A DNA stretch of 64,000 bases from Microbacterium sp. ABRD28 (GTDB taxonomy: Bacteria; Actinomycetota; Actinomycetes; Actinomycetales; Microbacteriaceae). The stretch is from contig NZ_CP031015.1 in NCBI RefSeq assembly GCF_003850245.1, positions 496,001 to 560,000 on the forward strand, given 5' to 3'. This document shows positions 26,906 through 40,037 of this stretch, in pieces. How positions within the stretch are numbered: position 1 is the first letter of the stretch; the number at the start of each line of letters is the position of its first letter. The notes under the pieces were generated by a model. That model saw only the letters and a program-made list of their open reading frames with translations. It made no database searches and was not told where the DNA came from. The translations under genes were made by a program, and so were the position numbers.

Positions 26906-27850
26906 TTAGTGGAGGGCGAGTTCTCCCAGCGCCGGCTGGCTCTGGGGGTTGACCTCACGGTAGTACTGGTTCTCCTTCTCGATCGGTGTGAGGTATCCGA
27001 TCGATGAGTGCAGCCGATTCTCGTTGAACCAGTGCACCCAGGACAGCGTGGCGAGCTCGAGTTCGTCGGCTGTGCGGAACGGGCCGTCGATCTTCACGCA
27101 CTCGGTCTTGTAGAGACCCACAACTGTCTCGGCGAGGGCGTTGTCGTAGGAGTCGCCGACCGTTCCGATCGATGCGATCGCGCCGACGTCGGCGAGGCGC
27201 TCGGCGTAGCGGATCGCGGTGTATTGCGATCCGGCATCCGAGTGCTGGATGACGCCGGTGACGTCCTGGCCCGCGCGGTCTCTGATCCAGAGAGCCATCT
27301 CGAGCGCATCCAACGGGAGGTCGGTGGGCATCCGGTTCATGGTCCGCCAGCCCACGATCCTGCGGGAGAACACGTCGGTGACGAACGCGGTGAACGCCAT
27401 CCCCGACCACGTCGGAACATAGGTGAAGTCGACCACCCAGAGCTCGTTCGGCCGGTTCGCGCGGAAGCAGCGCTGCACGTGATCCGGCGGCCGGAATGCC
27501 GCCCCGTCCGCTTTGGTGGTGATGAACTGCTTGCCGCGGCGGATCCCGCGCAGCCCCTGCTGCCGCATGAGCCGTTCGACCGTGCAACGGGCCACGACGG
27601 TGCCCTGCCGTCGCAGCAGGTGCCAGACCTTCCGGGCGCCGCTGATCCCGCGGCCGAGCTTTCGGTCCCAGAACACCTTCTCGATCTGCACGATCATCTC
27701 CGCGTCGCTGATCGCCCGCGCCGACGGCGGCCGCTTTTTGAACGCGTAGTAACCGGACGGAGCGATCGGCACGGCATGCTCGCTGAGCACCCGGCAGATC
27801 GGCTCGACCCCGAACCGGTCACGATGATCGTCGATGAACTGAACTACCAC
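26906..27850 (-). CDS. IS3-family transposase OrfB (DDE integrase)
   Basis: 314 residues. HTH_21-like N-terminus (IDDHRDRFGVEPICRVL, SPSGYYAF-type PSGYYAFKKRPPS), then the rve catalytic core: D in WVVDFTYVPTW, D in IQHSDAGSQYT, E in DNALAETVVGLYKTE. The C-terminus LHSSIGYLTPIEKE is typical. The GTG start overlaps the OrfA stop (GTGGTAG), so expression is coupled to, or frameshifted from, OrfA. It appears intact. Confidence 0.93.
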   Translation of the reverse strand: MVVQFIDDHRDRFGVEPICRVLSEHAVPIAPSGYYAFKKRPPSARAISDAEMIVQIEKVFWDRKLGRGISGARKVWHLLRRQGTVVARCTVERLMRQQGLRGIRRGKQFITTKADGAAFRPPDHVQRCFRANRPNELWVVDFTYVPTWSGMAFTAFVTDVFSRRIVGWRTMNRMPTDLPLDALEMALWIRDRAGQDVTGVIQHSDAGSQYTAIRYAERLADVGAIASIGTVGDSYDNALAETVVGLYKTECVKIDGPFRTADELELATLSWVHWFNENRLHSSIGYLTPIEKENQYYREVNPQSQPALGELALH

Positions 27851-28179
27851 GGCAGTCGCGGGTCGAGCTCCCGCGCGAAGAACGACGAGGCCGCCAACAG
27901 AATCTCGTTCGCCCTCTTCAACTCCCGGTTCTCCGCCTCGAGCTGCTTGATCCGAGCCGCATCACTCGTCGTCGTCCCGGGACGCTCGCCCGCGTCAATC
28001 GCGGCCTGCTTGCACCAACCCCGCAGCGTGTCGGAATTGACCCCGACACGCTGCCCGATCCGGACCACTGCCTGATTCAGCGACAGCTCCGGATCCTCCT
28101 TCCGGGCCTCAGCCACAAGCCGCATCGCACGCTCACGAAGCTCCGGCGGATACTTCCTCTGCGCTGGCATAGTCATCAT
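27844..28179 (-). CDS. IS3-family transposase OrfA
   Basis: 111 residues. HTH_Tnp_1 domain (RKYPPELRERAMRLVAEAR, then LNQAVVRIGQRVGVNSDTLRGW) followed by a leucine zipper (ARIKQLEAENRELKRANEILL). It binds the IS ends and controls transposition. It ends 7 bases inside orfB. No A-rich slippery heptamer is obvious in the overlap, so OrfAB may arise by translational coupling rather than the usual -1 frameshift. Confidence 0.92.
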   Translation of the reverse strand: MMTMPAQRKYPPELRERAMRLVAEARKEDPELSLNQAVVRIGQRVGVNSDTLRGWCKQAAIDAGERPGTTTSDAARIKQLEAENRELKRANEILLAASSFFARELDPRLPW

Positions 28180-29192: not shown

Positions 29193-30245
29193 TCAGCTGT
29201 CGCCGTAGCCGTTCTCGCCGAGCTCGGCGAGAATGCGGTTCAGGTCCTGAATACTAGCGAAATCGATGCTGATCTGGCCTTTTCGCGCGGTCAGCGAAAT
29301 CTTCACGCGGGTGTTCAGGCGATCCCCGAGCCGTTCCGCCAGCTCGTCGAGATGGCCGCGGCGTGCGCCGGCCTTCGGGCGGGAGGTGCGGATCAGACCG
29401 GCATCCGTGAGCTTCGCAGCCGACTCGGCCGCGCGGACCGAGAGGTCCTCGTTCACGATCTTGTCAGCGAGGCGCTGCATCGCATCATCGTCGGGGAGGG
29501 AGAGGATGGCGCGGGCGTGCCCGGCGCTCAGCACGCCCGCCGCCACGCGCTGCTGAACCGGGACGGGCAGCTTGAGCAGGCGGATGGTGTTGCTGATCTG
29601 GGGACGCGACCGACCGATGCGGGCCGCGAGCTCCTCCTGGGTGATGCCGAAGTCTTCGAGGAGTTGCTGGTATGCGGAGGCTTCCTCGAGCGGGTTCAGC
29701 TGCGAACGGTGCAGGTTCTCGAGCAGCGCATCGCGGAGCAGGTGCTCGTCGGATGTGTCGCGAACCACCGCGGGGATGGTGGTGAGCCCCGCCTCGCGCG
29801 CTGCGCGGGTGCGCCGCTCCCCCATGATGAGTTCGTAGGAGCCATCGCCGAGGTCGCGGACGACGACCGGTTGGAGGACGCCGAACTCGCGAACGCTGTG
29901 TACGAGCTCTGCCAGATCGTCCGCGTCGAAGTGCGTTCGCGGCTGCCGAGGGTTCGGGACGATCGCGTGCGGGTCGACGTGCACGAGGCGGGCACCGGGC
30001 ACCGCGACGAGGTTCGCGGCGTCGTCGTCCGAAGACGTCGGCGACGTGCCGTCACTCGAGGTGACGTCGCCGGTCGCGCCCGTTGCGGAATCAGCGTCCG
30101 GTGCGGCGTCGCCGGAATCGTCCGGGCGTTCCTCCACAGCGACAGCGCTGCGGGCGAAGAAGACGTCGGCGGGTCGTGACTCGCTGGGTTCACTGGTGGG
30201 GATCAGCGCGCCGATGCCGCGTCCGAGTCCTGTGCGCTTCGCCAT
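29193..30245 (-). CDS. parB: Chromosome-partitioning protein ParB
   Basis: 350 residues. ParB/Spo0J CTPase domain with [20 protein letters not shown] and [13 protein letters not shown] (arginine-rich C motif), then the HTH ([20 protein letters not shown]) that reads parS, and a C-terminal dimer domain. It binds the parS cluster just upstream of parA, spreads and loads SMC for segregation of the origin. The start overlaps the parA stop. Confidence 0.97.
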
Positions 30246-31204
30246 CAGGCGTCTCCTTCATGCTGGGTGGTGCTTTCGCGGCGGAGGACCTCCACCGCTG
30301 CTTCGCGGTAGGCGACGGCGCCTGCGGACTGGCCGTCGTAGGCGATGACGGTCTGCCCGAAGCTCGGCGCCTCCGATACGCGGACAGAGCGGGGAATCAC
30401 CGTCTGCAGCACCTCCTTCGGGAAGTGCTGCCGAACTTCCTCGGCGACCTGCTGCGCGAGACGGGTGCGCCCGTCATACATCGTCAGCATGATGGTCGAG
30501 AGGTGCAGGCGCGGATTCAGGTGCTTCTGGATCATCCTCACCGTGCCGAGCAGCTGGCTCAGTCCCTCGAGTGCGTAGTACTCGCACTGAATGGGGATCA
30601 GGAGCTCATGCCCGGCCGCGAAGGCGTTGATGGTCAGCAACCCGAGCGAGGGGGGGCAGTCGATCAGAACGAAGTCGAGGTGCTCGGTCGTTGTGGCGAG
30701 GAAATCATCGACGGCCGTGCGGAGCCTGTGTTCTCGCGCGACCTGCGACACCAGCTCGATCTCGGCGCCGGCGAGGTGGATCGTACTCGGCGCGCAAAGG
30801 AGGTTGTCGGACTCAGGACTCGTCTGAATGATATCCGCGAGAGGAAAGTCGTCGATGAGGACGTCGTAGATGCTCGGCGTATCCGCGTCATGCGGGACAC
30901 CGAGGGCCGTGGAGGCGTTTCCCTGCGGATCGAGGTCGATGACGAGAACCCGTGCACCGAGAGATGCGAGCGCAGCGGCGAGGTTGACCGTTGTTGTCGT
31001 CTTCCCGACGCCGCCCTTCTGGTTTGCGACCGTGAACACACGGGTCTTCCCTGAGAAGTGGACGTCGACACTCTCCAGTCGTCGGCGTCGAGCCGTGAGG
31101 TCGGCGAGTTCTCGCGCGAGGGGTGTGTCGTCGAAAGTGACGGATGCTGCGGGCGTCCGGTTCTCGGCGTGTTCCACGTGAAACGCTCCGCTCGCTTCGT
31201 TCAT
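30245..31204 (-). CDS. parA: Chromosome-partitioning ATPase ParA
   Basis: 319 residues from the ATG at 31204. Deviant Walker [17 protein letters not shown] near residue 62, Walker A' [11 protein letters not shown], Walker [10 protein letters not shown]. It moves ParB-parS complexes along the nucleoid. An N-terminal extension of about 55 residues precedes the ATPase fold, and inside it residues AFHVEH are encoded by a degenerate parS site (31171-31184). It is followed by parB with overlapping stop and start. Confidence 0.97.
31171..31184. promoter_or_regulatory. parS-like site, one mismatch, inside parA
   Basis: GTTCCACGTGAAAC; consensus core is GTTTCACGTGAAAC. It lies within the 5' coding part of parA. 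Confidence 0.75.
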
Positions 31205-31405
31205 CACTCGTTCCACTCTAATCGCGAATCCTGACATCCCCTGACGCCCCTCCGCCTCGCCGCAACCCGGCAACGTCCCATTTTCGGTGGTCGCGTAGGC
31301 GGCAGAGCCGCGGTATCGCGACCCGACGTCGGCATTCGAGGAGGTGGCACGCCCGCCGTATCGAGACCCGTTTCCGCCGGCGCCCAGCATCTGCGCTGTC
31401 GGCCG

Positions 31406-31421
31406 CGTTTCACGTGAAACG
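31406..31421. promoter_or_regulatory. parS site
   Basis: CGTTTCACGTGAAACG, perfect 14-bp core, first full site of the array between parA and rsmG. Confidence 0.92.
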
Positions 31422-31565
31422 CCGGAGTACCGGCGCTGATCAAGTGGCGGCCCTGCGGCCGCATCGAGACCCGTAGACGTCCGACTGCTCGGTGGTCGAG
31501 TAGGCGGCGCGGTCGCCGTATCGAGACCCTCGCCGGCCCAGGCGCAAGCTCAAGGTTGCCTGGGC

Positions 31566-31579
31566 GTTTCACGTGAAAC
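31566..31579. promoter_or_regulatory. parS site
   Basis: GTTTCACGTGAAAC, perfect core, 159 bases after the previous site. Confidence 0.92.
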
Positions 31580-31726
31580 ACCACGCCGAGCGCGGGGGCC
31601 GAGTAGACGGCGCGACTACCGTAGCGAGGTCGATGGGCTTCGCACCACTTGGTGGCCGGGTACGCCGCGCAGCCGCCGTACTGAGCCCCGCGCCGCCCAG
31701 GCGCGAGGCCGAATGTGACGGGATCA

Positions 31727-31742
31727 TGTTTCACGTGAAACA
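31727..31742. promoter_or_regulatory. parS site, perfect 16-mer
   Basis: TGTTTCACGTGAAACA, identical to the bacterial parS consensus. Confidence 0.95.
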
Positions 31743-31886
31743 TCGCACTGTATGCGGGGTCGGAGCAGACGGCGCGACCGCCGTAGCGATATCGGGGCTT
31801 CCCACCCCTCGATGGCCGGGCAGCCCGCGCAGCCGCCGTACTCAGCCCCACATCCGCCTGTGACCGGCCTCGACACTTGAAGCCCT

Positions 31887-31900
31887 GTTCCACGTGAAAC
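31887..31900. promoter_or_regulatory. parS-like site, one mismatch
   Basis: GTTCCACGTGAAAC, in register with the 160-bp period. Confidence 0.75.
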
Positions 31901-32045
31901 ACCTACGCGGTTGAGTAGTCAGCCCAACTGCTATCCCAAGACCAATAGGCGTCCAACCGCTTGATGGTCGAGTAGGCGGCGCAACCGCCGTATCGAACCC
32001 GCTTCCGCCGCATCCGTCGGCGGCCGGCTCTTGCGCCAACGGAAG

Positions 32046-32061
32046 TGTTTCACGTGAAACA
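32046..32061. promoter_or_regulatory. parS site, perfect 16-mer
   Basis: TGTTTCACGTGAAACA, identical to the consensus and in register with the 160-bp period. Confidence 0.95.
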
Positions 32062-32150
32062 CCGGCGTACCTACGGTGGACGAGGAGGCGGCACAACTGC
32101 CGTATCGACACCTATCCGCGCCCGTGCCCGATTTCTGCGCTCTCGGCTCT

Positions 32151-32164
32151 GTTTCGCGTGAGAC
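32151..32164. promoter_or_regulatory. Degenerate parS-like site, two mismatches
   Basis: GTTTCGCGTGAGAC, symmetric position in the repeat but with a changed core. ParB binding is doubtful. Confidence 0.5.
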
Positions 32165-32305
32165 AACCTCGGTGGTCGCGTAGTCAGCGCATCCGCCGTC
32201 TCGAGACCAACAGGCATTCAATCGCCTGGTGGGCGAGTAGGCGGCGCGCCCGCCGTGTTGAGACCCGCGCCACCCTCAGGCAGGAGTCCGAAGGTTACCC
32301 ATCGC

Positions 32306-32319
32306 GTTTCACGTGAAAC
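32306..32319. promoter_or_regulatory. parS site
   Basis: GTTTCACGTGAAAC, perfect core, last site of the regular array. Confidence 0.92.
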
Positions 32320-32680
32320 AGTGCGGTAAACCCCTGGCTGAGCAAGCCGGGCAACCGCGGTCGCTAGACGCCGATGTCGATCGCGCCGGCTGCCCGATCT
32401 CCTGGTGCCGTTGCATCCGGAAAGCATGAGCAGCGTGCGGTCGCGAACATGTTCTGAGCGGACGCTGTGTTGACACCGTCGCGCTCGACAGCCGGCTCAC
32501 TCAGACGACTCGCACCTTTTCGATCCGACCCCTCACCCTCCTGCCTTGCCGACGCAGATGGGCGTCAGCTGCCTTGCGGCCCCTGGCCCCGAGATCGCAC
32601 GCAATGGAGGACCGCAATCTGCTCGCGCCAAAGTGGAAATGTCGGGTCTTGATCAAACGGCCTACTTGTCTGTCAGAGGC

Positions 32681-32694
32681 GTTTCACGTGAAAC
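32681..32694. promoter_or_regulatory. parS site
   Basis: GTTTCACGTGAAAC, perfect core, 375 bases from the previous site and outside the tandem repeat. Confidence 0.92.
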
Positions 32695-32909
32695 GCACCT
32701 GGCGGGCTACGGCGCAGCCACGTGTTGCCACGCTTTCCTACTATCCCTCAGTGACGCAATCGCGCCTACGAGGTGCATACGCACACTCGCGCGCGCTACA
32801 CAACAGCCGCGCACTCGAAGGACCGACCTAACGACAGACGCTGTAGCGGCTCGTCGTCTTTTCCCTCAGAGCAGTCGGGGTCCTACGGTCGCATGTAAAG
32901 GGTTCAAGC

Positions 32910-32923
32910 GTTTCACGTGAAAC
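32910..32923. promoter_or_regulatory. parS site
   Basis: GTTTCACGTGAAAC, perfect core, the last site before rsmG. Confidence 0.92.
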
Positions 32924-33130
32924 ACACGGCACCTCCCGGGCCGATGACACGAGACTCAGCGCCACCGCAGACGGTCGCTGTGTGCGTGCGCCCCGCACCC
33001 TCGTGTGCGCAGCCCGCCGAGCCGGTCCGAAAGGGTTCCGTGATCCGCAAAGCACCGCGATGCCGCCCTGAGGGCGCAAACGATGTATCGGTGCCGCCTG
33101 CGCGTCATCGTGACCGACAGGGCTTGCGAC

Positions 33131-33382
33131 TCAGTCGGTTCCATTGCTCGAGTCGTCCACGAACAAGCGCGAGAGTTTCGTTCGACCCCATCCCTGCACC
33201 TGCGTCTCGCGACGGAAAGCATCGGCAGCGTTCTCGAATTCTTCCACGGAGAGGAGACGGAGGAGGAGCGGCGCTCGCGTATACAGCGCGCCCATCTCTT
33301 CGTTGTGCTGAGTGACACGCCGCTTAAGATCGCGTGTGCTGCCGGCGTAGGTCGAGCGGTCACTGCATTCGAGGATGTCCAT
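33131..33382 (-). pseudogene. GIY-YIG nuclease-family gene, 5'-truncated or decaying
   Basis: 83 residues: MDILECSDRSTYAGSTRDLK, then RRVTQHNEEMGALYTRAPLL, EEFENAADAFRRETQVQGWGRTK. The second Tyr motif (YAGST), the Arg (KRRVTQHN) and the Glu (RRETQVQGWGR) of GIY-YIG domains are present. The first motif, normally Y-x-L/V-x-C, reads D-I-L-E-C, so its Tyr is lost. A TAA stop stands directly before the ATG and no ribosome site is seen. It therefore looks like the remains of a UvrC-like small GIY-YIG protein of the type common in actinobacteria. Confidence 0.6.
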
Positions 33383-33544
33383 TTAAGCCAGGGGACGATC
33401 GTTCCCTGCGCGCCGCGCGAAGGATCGAAATGCAGGCGAGAGCGTGGATAAGTCACGCGTTTGCCGATATGCGCAGGGAGAGTGGCGGGCCAACTGCGGC
33501 GCGCGGGGAATCTCGAGTCGTTGCCTGCGCCGCTACGTGAGCGC

Positions 33545-34207
33545 CTAGGGACGGGCGACACGGCCGCGGAGTGCGCGGGTGGGCTCCGCCAGGACGCCCT
33601 CGCCGAGGATCTCCACTCGCGCGTCCACAACATGGAATCTGCGGAGCTGCTTCGTCGCCGCCTCGATCTCCGCCTGCGCGTTCTGACCCTTGAGGAAGAT
33701 CAACTCACCCCCGTCACGCACCAGGGGTGCGGTCAACGGCAGGAGGGTCCGAAGGGCACTGACCGCGCGTGCGGTGACGGCATCGAGAACAGCCCCCTCG
33801 GACCACTCTTCCGCTCGGGCGCGCACCACCTCGACGTTCGAGAGACCGAGATCGTGGACCTGCTCCGACAGCCACGCGACACGGCGCTCCATCGGCTCGA
33901 CAAGGACCCAGTGCACGTCGGGGCGCGCGATCGCCAGCACGATTCCAGGAAGGCCCGCTCCCGAACCGATGTCGCCCACCCGGCCTGCGGGGAACAACGG
34001 CGCAGCGATGACGCTGTTCAACACATGACGCGTCCACAGCCGCGGGAGTTCCAGGGGACCGATGAGCCCTCGCTCCTCGCCGTGATCCGCCAATGCCCGG
34101 GTGAACTGCCGGGCCCGATCGATCTCGGCTCCGAACAGAGCCGCGGCGACAGCCGGCTCCGCCTCGAGGGATGCCGGAGTTTCGGGGGAACCGCCCTCGT
34201 CAGCCAC
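33545..34207 (-). CDS. rsmG: 16S rRNA (guanine-N7)-methyltransferase RsmG
   Basis: 220 residues from the GTG at 34207, which overlaps the khpB stop (GTGGCTGA). The SAM site is VGDIGSGAGLPGIVLAI, then VLVEPMERRVAWL, and an RNA-binding N-terminal helix region (LPRLWTRHVLNS). It methylates G527 of 16S rRNA (E. coli numbering). Loss of rsmG gives low-level streptomycin resistance in other bacteria. It is last in the rpmH-rnpA-yidD-yidC-khpB-rsmG series. Confidence 0.95.
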   Translation of the reverse strand: MADEGGSPETPASLEAEPAVAAALFGAEIDRARQFTRALADHGEERGLIGPLELPRLWTRHVLNSVIAAPLFPAGRVGDIGSGAGLPGIVLAIARPDVHWVLVEPMERRVAWLSEQVHDLGLSNVEVVRARAEEWSEGAVLDAVTARAVSALRTLLPLTAPLVRDGGELIFLKGQNAQAEIEAATKQLRRFHVVDARVEILGEGVLAEPTRALRGRVARP

Positions 34208-34709
34208 GTCGGATGACGGTGTGGCGGTCGGCACCCTCGCCGTACGACTCCGACACGAGACCACGCTCCGCGACGATGTCGTGGATCAGCTTGCGCTCGT
34301 AGCTCGACATCGCCGGCAACGAAGCCTGCGTCGCTCCCTCGTCCAGACGCGCGGCCGCGCGGTCCACGAGCTTCTCCAGCTCGCGCTGACGCGCGTCGCG
34401 CGAACCGCCGATATCGAGGATGACGCGCGACAGCCGACCGGTGCGATTCTGCACCGCGATGCGCGTCAGTTCCTGCAGCGCCTGCACGGTGTCAGGATCC
34501 GAGAGCAGGGAAAGCGATTGCCCACCGTCGCCCTCCAGCGACACGTAGGGACGCCCTCCGCGGACATCCAGAGTCAGATCGCCGTCGACGTCGGCGATGT
34601 CCAGGAGCCCCTCGATGAAGTCGGCCGCGATGTCGCCCTCCTGCTCCAGCTGCTCGACGGACGGCTCTTCGCGGTGCGGGCGTGCGTCAACGGGCGCGAC
34701 GTCAGACAT
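34200..34709 (-). CDS. khpB: Jag/KhpB RNA-binding protein (KH and R3H domains)
   Basis: 169 residues. The KH-like part runs over about residues 30-95 (AADFIEGLLDIADVDGDLTL, ALQELTRIAVQNRTGRLSRV) and the R3H part follows (VDRAAARLDEGATQASLPAM, SYERKLIHDIVAERGLVSES). R3H proteins bind single-stranded RNA. The gene regularly follows yidC, as here (30 bases away). Confidence 0.92.
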   Translation of the reverse strand: MSDVAPVDARPHREEPSVEQLEQEGDIAADFIEGLLDIADVDGDLTLDVRGGRPYVSLEGDGGQSLSLLSDPDTVQALQELTRIAVQNRTGRLSRVILDIGGSRDARQRELEKLVDRAAARLDEGATQASLPAMSSYERKLIHDIVAERGLVSESYGEGADRHTVIRRG

Positions 34710-36635: not shown

Positions 36636-36961
36636 AGAGATCAACTCCGGATCAGGTGTCACCGGGACGGGGTTCTACCCTTGGAGGACCGGGGACGACG
36701 TTACGGGGACTGCCACGAGGGCATAAGTCAACCGACTAAGGCTACGTCGAGATGCCTGAGAACTCAAACCGACGCGCTCTCCGGGCCTCTCGCCGCATTA
36801 CCAGTGTGACCTACTTCGGCAGTGGCACGACACGCCGCCGCGCCATACAGTGGAGTTTGCTCCCGCGACCCGCGCTGACTAGCGTGGCTCCGGCAGTTAT
36901 CCACAGGCCCGGCGTGTCGACTCCGCACGGCCTGGGACCGCGAATCTCACCCGGGGGGCAC
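36636..36961. promoter_or_regulatory. Divergent rpmH/dnaA promoter region with a DnaA box
   Basis: 326 bp between divergent genes. It contains the TTATCCACA box listed separately, 57 bases before the dnaA start. A GGGGGG ribosome site stands directly before the dnaA ATG. An AT-rich stretch (36715-36800) probably holds the rpmH promoter. No gene is supported inside. Confidence 0.6.
36897..36905 (+). promoter_or_regulatory. DnaA box in the dnaA promoter
   Basis: TTATCCACA, a perfect box, upstream of dnaA; it fits autoregulation by DnaA. Confidence 0.85.
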
Positions 36962-38413
36962 ATGGCCGAGCAGGACGCACCAGATGTACCGTTCTGGCCT
37001 GCCGTCATGGAGATTCTGGCGTCGGACGAACGTGTCACCCCGCAGCTCCACGGCTTCCTGAACCTCGCCGTTCCTCAGGGTGTCATCGGGGGAACGCTCT
37101 ACCTCGACGTCCCCAACGACCTCACCGCCGCACAGGTGAACAAGCGCATGCGCGCTCCGCTGCTCGAGGCTCTCTCCCGTGTGGATGTCGACGGCGGTCC
37201 GGCCGCCAGTGCTTTCCGCGTCGTGGTCAATCCCGACCTGGTCGCCACCCCGATGTCCGCCCCGGTCGCCCAGGCAGCGGCGGTGGAGCCCAACGGCTCC
37301 GCGTCGACGGTCACCGCCACGCTCACCCCGATCCGCTCGCCGCGCGAGGAGCCGATGGAGCCCGCATCGGTGTCCCGCACCGACACGCGACTGAATCCGA
37401 AGTACACCTTCGACAACTTCGTCATCGGACAGTCCAACCGATTCGCCCACGCTGCGGCGGTCGCCGTGGCCGAGGCTCCGGCCAAGGCCTATAACCCGCT
37501 GTTCATCTACGGCGACTCCGGGCTGGGGAAGACCCATCTGCTGCATGCCATCGGCGACTACGCGATCAGCCTCTACGCCGGCATCAAGGTCCGATACGTC
37601 TCGAGCGAAGAGTTCACGAACGACTTCATCAACTCCATCGCCAACAACCGCGGATCAGCGTTCCAGGCCAGGTATCGCGATGTCGACATCCTTCTCATCG
37701 ACGACATCCAGTTCCTCCAGGGCCGTGCCGAGACGCAGGAAGCCTTCTTCCACACGTTCAACACACTGCATGACCACGACAAGCAGGTCGTGATCACCAG
37801 CGATGTGCCGCCCAAGCACCTCACCGGCTTCGAAGACCGCATGCGCAGCCGGTTCGAGTGGGGTCTCATCACCGACGTGCAGGCGCCCGACCTCGAGACC
37901 CGCATCGCCATCCTGCGCAAGAAGGCGCAGTCCGAGCGGTTGCACATCCCCGACGAGGTGCTGGAATACATCGCCACCGTCGTCTCCAGCAACATCCGCG
38001 AACTCGAGGGCGCGCTGATCCGCGTGTCGGCGTTCGCCAGTCTCAACCGTTCGAACCTGGACATGTCCCTGGCCCAGACGGTGCTGCGTGACATCGTCGA
38101 TCAGGATGACGCGAACATCATCTCGCCGACCGACATCATCACGGCGACCGCTCAGTACTTCAAACTCACCGTCGACGACCTCTACGGCTCGAGTAGATCC
38201 CAGGCGGTGGCGACCGCGAGACAGATCGCGATGTACCTCTGTCGGGAGCGCACCAACCTGTCGCTGCCGAAGATCGGCCAGCTCTTCGGAAACCGTGATC
38301 ACACGACCGTGATGTACGCCTACAAGAAGATCAGCGACCTGATGAAGGAACGTCGGTCGATCTACAACCAGGTGACCGAGATCACCACGCAGTTGGGTCG
38401 CGGCGGGCGCTGA
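36962..38413 (+). CDS. dnaA: Chromosomal replication initiator DnaA
   Basis: 483 residues from the ATG at 36962. Domain I is residues 1-80, followed by a variable linker (domain II, about 85-140, Pro/Ala/Thr-rich). The AAA+ core has Walker [14 protein letters not shown] near residue 185 and Walker [13 protein letters not shown]. Domain IV carries the box-binding signature [15 protein letters not shown]. It opens oriC, which follows directly. Confidence 0.98.
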
Positions 38414-38885: not shown

Positions 38886-40037
38886 GTGAAGTTCCACGTC
38901 AATCGCGATGTGTTCAGCGAAGCCGTGTCATTCGTGGTGAAGCTCCTTCCGCAGCGCAATCCGCAGCCGATCCTGGCCGGTGTTCTCATCGAAGCGGGCG
39001 ACTCCGGGCTGTCACTGTCGGCGTTCGACTACGAAGCGTCGGCCCGCACGACGATCGACGCGACGGTCGATGAGCCCGGCACGATCCTCGTGCACGGACG
39101 CCTGCTGTCCGAGATCGCCAGCCGTCTGCCGAATGCCCCGATCCAGATCGCGGTGGAGGAGGACGGTGGAATCCTCCTCACCTGCGGGTCGGCGCGCTTC
39201 ACCCTGTCGTCGATGCCGGTGCAGGAGTACCCCGCGATCCCCGAGGTCACGGGCGAATCGGGCCTCGTGCCCGCAGAGGATTTCGCCACCGCGATCGCGC
39301 AGGTGGCCTTCGCAGCATCCCGCGATGACGTCACGCCCGTCCTCACGGGCGTCCAGCTCGAGGTCACCGGCACCCGGCTCAGCCTCGTCGCCACCGACCG
39401 GTACCGCGTGGCGTTGCGCGAGATTCCGTGGGACGGCGGCTCTGCGGCATCCGACGAGGCCACCACCGCCCTCGTTCCCGCGCGCACCCTGACCGAGGTG
39501 GGCAAGACCTTCGCCCACGGCGGCGACATCTCGATCGCCTTCTCCGGCGCGGGTGACCGCGAGATCATCGCCTTCACCGCCGGCAACAAGACAGTGACCT
39601 CCCTGCTGATCAAGGGCAACTTCCCGCCCGTGCGGCGGCTGTTCCCCGAGCAGACCGAGCACCATGCCGTGGTCAATACCGCCGAACTGGCCGAGGCCGT
39701 GCGTCGCGTCTCGCTGGTGCTCGACCGGTCTGCACCGCTGCGATTCACCTTCACCTCCGAAGGGGTGGCCATGGACGCGTCGGGCACCGAGCAGGCCCGC
39801 GCGACCGAGTCGGTGGATGCCACGCTCCTCGGCGACGACGTGACGCTGGGTCTGAACCCGCAGTACCTTCTCGAATCCCTGGGCGCGGTGCGCAGCGAGT
39901 TCACGCGCATCACGTTCACCTCGAGCGAGAACGCCAACAAGCTCAGCCCGGTGCTCATCACCCCGCAGACCTCGGTCGACAAGGGTGGCGCGGAGTCGTT
40001 CAAGTACCTGCTGCAGCCGAACCTGCTGCTGCGCTGA
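38886..40037 (+). CDS. dnaN: DNA polymerase III beta subunit (sliding clamp)
   Basis: 383 residues from a GTG start (MKFHVNRDVFSEAVSFVVKL). Three clamp folds in order, with LSLVATDRYRVALRE in the middle. The C-terminus SFKYLLQPNLLLR replaces the more common MPMR-type end. It rings DNA and holds the polymerase. It is followed by recF after 51 bases. Confidence 0.97.
   Translation: MKFHVNRDVFSEAVSFVVKLLPQRNPQPILAGVLIEAGDSGLSLSAFDYEASARTTIDATVDEPGTILVHGRLLSEIASRLPNAPIQIAVEEDGGILLTCGSARFTLSSMPVQEYPAIPEVTGESGLVPAEDFATAIAQVAFAASRDDVTPVLTGVQLEVTGTRLSLVATDRYRVALREIPWDGGSAASDEATTALVPARTLTEVGKTFAHGGDISIAFSGAGDREIIAFTAGNKTVTSLLIKGNFPPVRRLFPEQTEHHAVVNTAELAEAVRRVSLVLDRSAPLRFTFTSEGVAMDASGTEQARATESVDATLLGDDVTLGLNPQYLLESLGAVRSEFTRITFTSSENANKLSPVLITPQTSVDKGGAESFKYLLQPNLLLR

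Follow-up and report, generated by a model that had tools for sequence, protein, structure and literature searches.

Chromosomal parS clusters near oriC hold exact parS sites beside parAB and dnaA. Part of a review of parS asks why the number of these sites varies and what drives their clustering; its partial answer is a tolerated zone around the native parS, and its section 13 makes no mention of tandem duplication (PMC7333895). On the F plasmid, the centromere sopC is described, in one passage, as twelve 43-bp repeats (PMC6238139). The 64,000-bp stretch analysed here (the window), bases 496001–560000 of the one-contig, 3.27-Mb genome of Microbacterium sp. ABRD28, resembles oriC-proximal clusters in carrying exact parS sites beside parAB and dnaA, and is unlike them in that the sites, in the interval between parA and rsmG (the island), lie in regular, degenerate tandem units. 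As in sopC, the centromere consists of tandem repeats that carry ParB sites; sopC, however, is a plasmid element with short units, whereas the window array is chromosomal, degenerate and built of units of about 160 bp.

A second group of described systems bears on a palindrome found among these parS sites. In the pairing of repetitive extragenic palindromic (REP) elements, or bacterial interspersed mosaic elements (BIMEs), with REP-associated tyrosine transposases (RAYTs), the enzyme gene is flanked by its own REPs; the palindromes studied here are likewise short hairpins in tandem or alternating clusters, with hundreds of copies in some genomes (compare the part of PMC2817692 describing that pairing). 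They differ in their partner: RAYTs have the PF01797 domain, which was unmatched in 29 of 30 genomes here, whereas the partner in our loci is a GIY-YIG nuclease (PF01541). GIY-YIG and RAYT nucleases belong to unrelated superfamilies. CGTC-tagged REPs, as outlined in part of PMC3733652, are described as having no dedicated transposase of their own and carry a CGTC, TGTC or CCTC tag, an AT-starting stem of 8–9 bp, a loop of 4–5 nt and a CCA tail. Hairpins of about this build bracket four alphaproteobacterial GIY-YIG loci (L293, L296, L297 and L298), whereas that part of the account names no GIY-YIG partner. Among the literature matches listed, in a search that did not extend to preprints, we found no report linking GIY-YIG proteins with repetitive extragenic palindromic elements and no fitting report of Microbacterium parS arrays or palindromic repeats. 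Here we present evidence that the parA–rsmG interval is probably the product of local tandem duplication of parS overlapping with a decaying pair of a GIY-YIG nuclease gene and its REPs.

A degenerate parS array in the window

Searches used a parS consensus that we take to be the standard one. They confirmed ten sites within 1.75 kb, seven of them exact, two with one mismatch and one with two, as an earlier reading of the sequence without database searches (the sequence-only reading) had proposed. The sites, located by motif search and given without strand, and the array, delimited by repeat searches and unit comparison, are as follows.

31171..31184: parS-like, one mismatch, within the N-terminal codons of parA
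31407..31420: parS, exact
31566..31579: parS, exact
31728..31741: parS, exact
31887..31900: parS, one mismatch
32047..32060: parS, exact
32151..32164: parS-like, two mismatches
32306..32319: parS, exact
32681..32694: parS, exact, beyond the 160-bp array
32910..32923: parS, exact, beyond the 160-bp array
31407..32305: degenerate tandem repeat of about 160 bp, with units starting at 31407, 31566, 31728, 31887, 32047 (104 bp) and 32151

When up to three mismatches were allowed, the window gave 11 matches against 1.03 in shuffled sequence, the eleventh lying at 38891 with three mismatches. All sites with at most one mismatch in the 3.27-Mb genome are in the parA–rsmG island, and none was found elsewhere. 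Exact cores thus stand beside parA and parB near oriC, as in a chromosomal ParABS centromere, and ParB is predicted to occupy them.

The reported spacings of 159, 162, 159, 160, 104 and 155 bp are correct, and the 160-bp degenerate repeat is real: Tandem Repeats Finder returned a period of 160 with 2.2 copies and 76% matches at 31488–31841, and a repeat search of the window returned a 41-nt palindrome unit nine times together with repeats of 67–96 nt spanning the spacers. Spacers have drifted while parS and the palindromes are still recognizable, as had been read from the letters; mean pairwise identity over six units is 0.93 for parS, 0.63 and 0.76 for the two palindromes and 0.41–0.56 for the other spacer. 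Under a harsher test of flank similarity, only two of the nine window sites with at most one mismatch were scored as duplicated (three of nine with palindromes masked), and the array is therefore old. parS-like sites within parA occur in the window and in four sister islands, and one near the 5' end of rsmG is found in many species and not in the window genome.

Tandem duplication of parS across Microbacterium

Of 295 Microbacterium genomes, 287 carry an exact parS. We assembled parA–rsmG islands from 160 fetched loci and the window (161 in total), of which 118 were kept after removal of 22 duplicates and 21 lacking a border gene. The fetched loci comprised 80 named loci (the best 80 of 276) and 80 G-loci; the first 60 G-loci were taken in order of RsmG similarity, skipping G003 (gene at a contig end), and the last 20 include G098, G078, G036 and G029, picked for phased parS, and G175, G068, G288, G112 and G086, picked for palindromes near parS. 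The shortest island measured 155 bp and the longest 7902 bp; the median number of parS sites was six (at most one mismatch, n = 118). The parS count followed island length (rho 0.80), with density dropping from 12 to 1.7 per kb.

Equal spacings exceeded random placement (p < 0.01) in 11 of 93 testable islands. The shorter periods are about 121 bp (L073), 131 (L099), 141 (L108), 151 (L078), 152 (L211) and 159 (window), and the longer ones about 203 (L131), 207 (L076), 216 (L132), 219 (L107) and 291 (L110). Duplicated parS flanks were detected in 35 of 97 testable islands, with at least four units in 18, and in 23 of 97 when palindromes were masked. A tree built with FastTree from ParA, ParB and RsmG, with good support for 53 of 115 inner branches, requires at least 19 changes of the duplication state. 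Multiplication of parS by tandem duplication, proposed from the window alone, is thus general in the genus, and arrays with other periods recur in other species. The near-160 spacing itself, which on the sequence-only reading should persist in sister species, stood in two of four sister islands, L151 (161 and 169) and L071 (161 and 154), and not in L073 and L072, where spacings are about 120 bp and its multiples. Arrays of three exact parS spaced 144–174 bp apart, the only period searched across the phylum, were found in one of 396 genomes, the source genome itself. Spacings of the 11 arrays had no common phase at 10.5 bp, and helical phasing was discarded as an account of them.

The core outlasts its surroundings. 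We compared parS at 273 places with homologous flanks, each pair being entered from both sides and the neutral expectation summed over bands: it was exact in 178, against about 28 expected under neutrality, and had at least three mismatches in 61. Species would differ in period because the core is kept while spacers drift.

The palindrome is a REP-like hairpin

The sequence-only reading had counted about 13 palindromes among the parS sites; 13 were found, all on the plus strand.

31290..32265, plus strand: 13 copies of a 34-bp REP-like palindrome (motif search), starting at 31290, 31335, 31438, 31495, 31598, 31655, 31760, 31815, 31910, 31967, 32079, 32175 and 32232, that at 31495 being the best kept

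Beyond the window, the element is a family of REP-like hairpins with covarying stems, built as outer stem, GAG, variable inner stem, TCGA and outer stem. Its strict form, GTCGAGTA..TATCGAGAC, occurs in 32 of 295 genomes of the genus and, across Microbacteriaceae, in 55 of 199 genomes and 32 of 85 genera, with up to 637 copies in one genome. That genome, G339, has no GIY-YIG match at E ≤ 1e-8, and its congeners G409 and G463 have both gene and palindrome. In an alignment of 51 copies (47 from Microbacterium and four from other genera), 96.1% of stem cells were paired compared with 79.7% after shuffling, and 78 double changes were seen compared with 25.9; neither value was reached in any of 500 shuffles. 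GTAG is present in all 51 aligned copies, although the pattern used to find them prescribed its G, T and A and left just the final G free to vary. Some other lineages carry GGAG in its place, and the conserved arms continue and pair outside this tag. At the family level these are imperfect palindromes of 20–40 bp with compensatory change, high in copy, dispersed and arranged as dimers or clusters, as REPs are.

The copies in the window are poorer. A covariance model recovered only three of the 13 at E ≤ 1e-6, and as a set they have no upkeep of pairing (73.7% versus 72.6% shuffled) and no compensatory change of the kind seen in the family. When four hairpins were folded as DNA and compared with shuffles, the window copy at 31290 (z −3.8) and a copy from L073 (z −2.8) were clearly better, whereas those at 31495 (z −0.8) and 31967 (z −1.7) were little better. 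Among 150 scored of 8,607 first-look candidates in the source genome, two palindromes scored well. One, at C1:25090, lies a long way from parS and is the only well-kept copy outside the island.

A RAYT was considered as mobilizer and set aside: the Y1_Tnp profile matched in none of 17 Microbacterium and one of 13 other family genomes (30 genomes, hand-picked), leaving 29 of 30 without a match.

The palindrome as a possible companion site of parS

In the sequence-only reading the palindrome was a conserved companion of parS, and a second centromere protein site, for SMC, a ParB cofactor or a nucleoid protein, would be kept beside each core. Several observations lean that way. Window palindromes are kept above their spacers, islands hold 71 of the 153 strict copies counted in 79 genomes, and over 29 islands palindrome density is 5.9 per kb inside the parS span versus 3.6 per kb in the rest of the island. 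The concentration in islands is better explained by the nuclease gene described below, which sits there, than by parS. Against a second site, fewer than two copies are present in 85 of 118 islands and at least two in 33 (the sampling was partly directed), and four of the 11 phased islands (L107, L110, L131 and L132) carry no palindrome. Palindrome arrays free of parS occur in sister islands, in 80-bp steps in L151 and 178-bp steps in L073; further clusters lie elsewhere in G112 and G242, two genomes with no exact parS outside the island, and copies surround GIY-YIG genes of other genera. Orientation in 31 islands is mixed (131 plus, 146 minus), placement among parS is near random (palindromes in 115 of 151 intervals against an expectation of 105.8, standard deviation 4.0, P = 0.012), and the window copies show no upkeep of pairing. 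The claim that the palindrome is better conserved than spacer stood in the window, at the identities given above, and failed in a masked cross-island test of 107 pairs. A conserved companion site is thus not supported, and we give a second protein site very little credence.

The palindrome was also tried as the cause of parS duplication. Duplicated flanks were found in 12 of 64 islands with fewer than two palindromes and 11 of 33 with at least two (Fisher p = 0.13), and this idea was dropped. Up to two arm mismatches were allowed in this duplication test and in the island counts, and at most one in the gene–island co-occurrence test below.

A GIY-YIG nuclease gene accompanies the palindromes

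Comparison of masked spacers revealed that palindrome-bearing islands have a segment in common that encodes a GIY-YIG nuclease of about 95 amino acids. The window contains a copy, overlooked in the sequence-only reading.

33131..33382, minus strand: decayed GIY-YIG nuclease gene, 83 amino acids (PF01541, 5e-10; E 1.5e-28 to profile A4)

A Tyr-Tyr-Arg-Glu set of residues has its roles in GIY-YIG nucleases. The relatives match PF01541 and hold this set, as in GIY-YIG/UPF0213 proteins. The window copy also matches PF01541, but of the 36 residues that ten relatives (ten of the 16 aligned) have in common without exception, 10 are missing from it, including the first Tyr of the GIY motif. It is also short: gene and palindromes are decaying together here. 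The only solved relatives found of this subfamily are the UPF0213 proteins PDB 1zg2 and 1ywl (E 5e-19 and 3e-15), deposited as hypothetical proteins.

The gene or a remnant is present in all 31 palindrome-bearing islands and in three of 87 others (Fisher 2e-25); of those three, L072 and L192 have remnants and L133 a divergent gene. L133, from genome G036, combines this divergent gene with many duplicated parS flanks and no palindrome. In a tree-based test, about 12 of 13 independent pairs changed in the same direction and none in the opposite one (median p = 0.0005). Chance, in which a long neutral intergenic tract gathers assorted repeats, would accord with the 50-fold span of island lengths; both gene and palindrome are missing from many long islands, however, and with the co-occurrence standing on the tree we find this account scarcely credible.

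Palindromes lie within 300 bp on both sides of the gene in 21 of 31 islands and on at least one side in 30, the exception being the window; co-occurrence with bracketing, by which we would define a REP-associated GIY-YIG gene, is thus seen in relatives, and bracketing is absent from the window. The presence of hairpins near both gene ends at many loci would also fit a role in regulating or terminating transcription, of this gene and of those around it, with passive multiplication. A terminator role was rejected for the window, as no terminator-like site (stem plus T-run) was found in 31000–33600, where 1.8 were expected; many copies, moreover, are distant from the gene, and we consider this transcriptional account very unlikely.

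Strict copies lie outside the island in 19 of the 79 genomes. All 19 carry the gene in the island, compared with 10 of the other 60; put the other way, copies lie outside the island in 19 of 29 genomes with the island gene and 0 of 50 without it. This contrast bears on the possibility that the gene is a homing-type passenger, entering existing REP clusters and not spreading them. The gene does sit within REP clusters, and 20 family genomes have REPs and no detected gene; the absence of outside copies from genomes without the island gene, the joint decay of gene and REPs in the source genome and the variation between lineages in the type of bracketing REP nevertheless make a passenger unlikely.

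Gene–palindrome pairs in other genera and on plasmids

The association extends through Microbacteriaceae. Among 199 genomes, 35 have gene and palindrome, 20 the palindrome only, 14 the gene only and 130 neither (p = 5e-14); the gene was called at E ≤ 1e-8 in 49. Thirty loci in other genera were fetched from the family gene matches, chosen by nuclease score. The narrow palindrome lies within 300 bp on both sides of the gene in 15 and on at least one side in 20, and several loci without it carry GGAG-type or CCCTGAGCCTGTCGAAGGG-type elements. Elements of the general GAG/TCGA build bracket 21 of the 30 genes, with 153 elements in all against nine in shuffles. An inverted repeat common to the two flanks beat the best of 100 shuffles at 26 of 30 loci; at L268 that repeat is parS itself.

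At L268, in another genus, a GIY-YIG gene of this subfamily is again placed among parS sites in the parA–rsmG interval, and the centromere address of the nuclease gene is therefore not limited to Microbacterium. No parA, parB, rsmG or parS was found at the other 29 loci.

Outside the family we collected 15 loci on plasmid records (10 alphaproteobacterial, three from Bacillota and two betaproteobacterial), eight loci being drawn from one later plasmid search, in which 40 of 52 records were listed. Seven of the 10 alphaproteobacterial loci, with distant homologues of the nuclease, are bracketed; L287, L294 and L300 are not. Brackets have the GAG/TCGA build in Methylobacterium bullatum, Methylobacterium aquaticum and Sphingomonas parapaucimobilis, where one bracketing element overlaps the GIY-YIG gene's annotated end, and are CGTC-REP-like in Sinorhizobium meliloti, Novosphingobium aromaticivorans, Shinella and Rhizobium CIAT894. 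Compared by eye with the build given in part of PMC3733652, the hairpins of L293, L297 and L298 fit, and that of L296 has the tag with a GC start and no CCA tail. In four 49-kb stretches around the CGTC-type cases, chosen for their bracketed GIY-YIG gene, none of 160 other genes (excluding end-cut genes and a few others) was bracketed within 150 bp. In the Methylobacterium bullatum and Sphingomonas parapaucimobilis stretches, an interval placed at random has a probability of about 0.003 of being bracketed.

Island borders and neighbourhood

The gene order is parB and parA (both minus), parS island, rsmG (minus) and dnaA (plus). By ParB, the closest named relatives are Microbacterium sp. AK009 (93%) and M. 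kunmingense (90%).

29193..30245, minus strand: parB, ParB/Spo0J family, 350 amino acids (TIGR00180 above cut-off)
30245..31204, minus strand: parA, start codon uncertain, longest open reading frame to 31390 (from the open reading frame list; the listed ParA-type ATPase matches are all below cut-off)
33545..34264, minus strand: rsmG, distal border of the island (TIGR00138 above cut-off)
36752..38413, plus strand: dnaA, marker of the oriC neighbourhood (TIGR00362 above cut-off)

An IS3-like gene pair (PF00665/HTH_21 plus PF01527) is found at 26906–28179 on the minus strand, about 1 kb downstream of parB.

Discussion

We propose that two processes overlap in this interval. In the first, a unit of parS plus spacer multiplies by local tandem duplication, and selection for ParB loading sites would hold the 14-bp core while the spacers drift; selection may also act on the number of parS sites. 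In the second, the palindromes would belong to the UPF0213-like GIY-YIG nuclease of about 95 amino acids, whose gene lies in the interval in a subset of Microbacterium. Working in the manner of a RAYT with its REPs, the nuclease may recognize the hairpin through its invariant GAG/TCGA part and cut it, and repair or strand transfer would then copy REPs locally and to other intergenic places. The direction of cause, from nuclease to REPs, is our preferred one. Both the nuclease gene and almost every REP are in decay in the source genome.

A number of results weigh against this account. On the activity side, the enzymatic link between nuclease and REPs is a prediction. The window gene has no well-kept palindrome nearby, the nearest being 1.6 kb off. 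Palindromes are retained above their flanks at flank identity 0.65–0.80 in the unmasked test, with no excess in the masked test, and parS duplication has no significant link to the palindrome. With parS and palindromes masked, parS is exact in 22 of 46 pairs where 6.9 are expected, a retention that is not significant by island (p = 0.09); in the youngest class the trend is reversed, with three of eight exact against 6.0 expected. Two of five covariation measures, pairs with a double change and further pair types, are not above shuffles. Among the weightiest points are REP-rich genomes with no detected gene: of 55 REP-positive family genomes, 20 have no gene at E ≤ 1e-8, including G339 (637 copies) and G363 (159), and 14 of 49 gene-positive genomes have no strict palindrome, several of their loci carrying related ones. 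The tree test of dispersal against the gene reaches only a median p of 0.06, and none of the five plasmid loci from outside the Alphaproteobacteria (three Bacillota, two betaproteobacterial) is bracketed.

We lean, by a little, towards a broader interpretation, in which small UPF0213-like GIY-YIG nucleases would be dedicated partners of large REP families in at least two phyla. In Microbacterium the pair would have settled in the chromosomal centromere, with parS itself spreading there in satellite-like fashion at periods that vary by species. Two REP families would be served, the GTAG/GGAG hairpins with GAG and TCGA in Microbacteriaceae and the CGTC REPs in Alphaproteobacteria.

For the centromere, successive rounds of tandem duplication in place, in which the core is preserved, would make the question of parS multiplication and clustering, posed in part of PMC7333895, testable, and turnover of parS arrays would be a bacterial counterpart of the turnover of centromere satellites. 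For REPs without a RAYT, of the class described in part of PMC3733652, a GIY-YIG nuclease gene lying among its own REPs offers a concrete candidate for the enzyme, one small enough to purify. Together, the GIY-YIG nuclease and its REPs may represent a kind of repeat-and-enzyme pair that is new.

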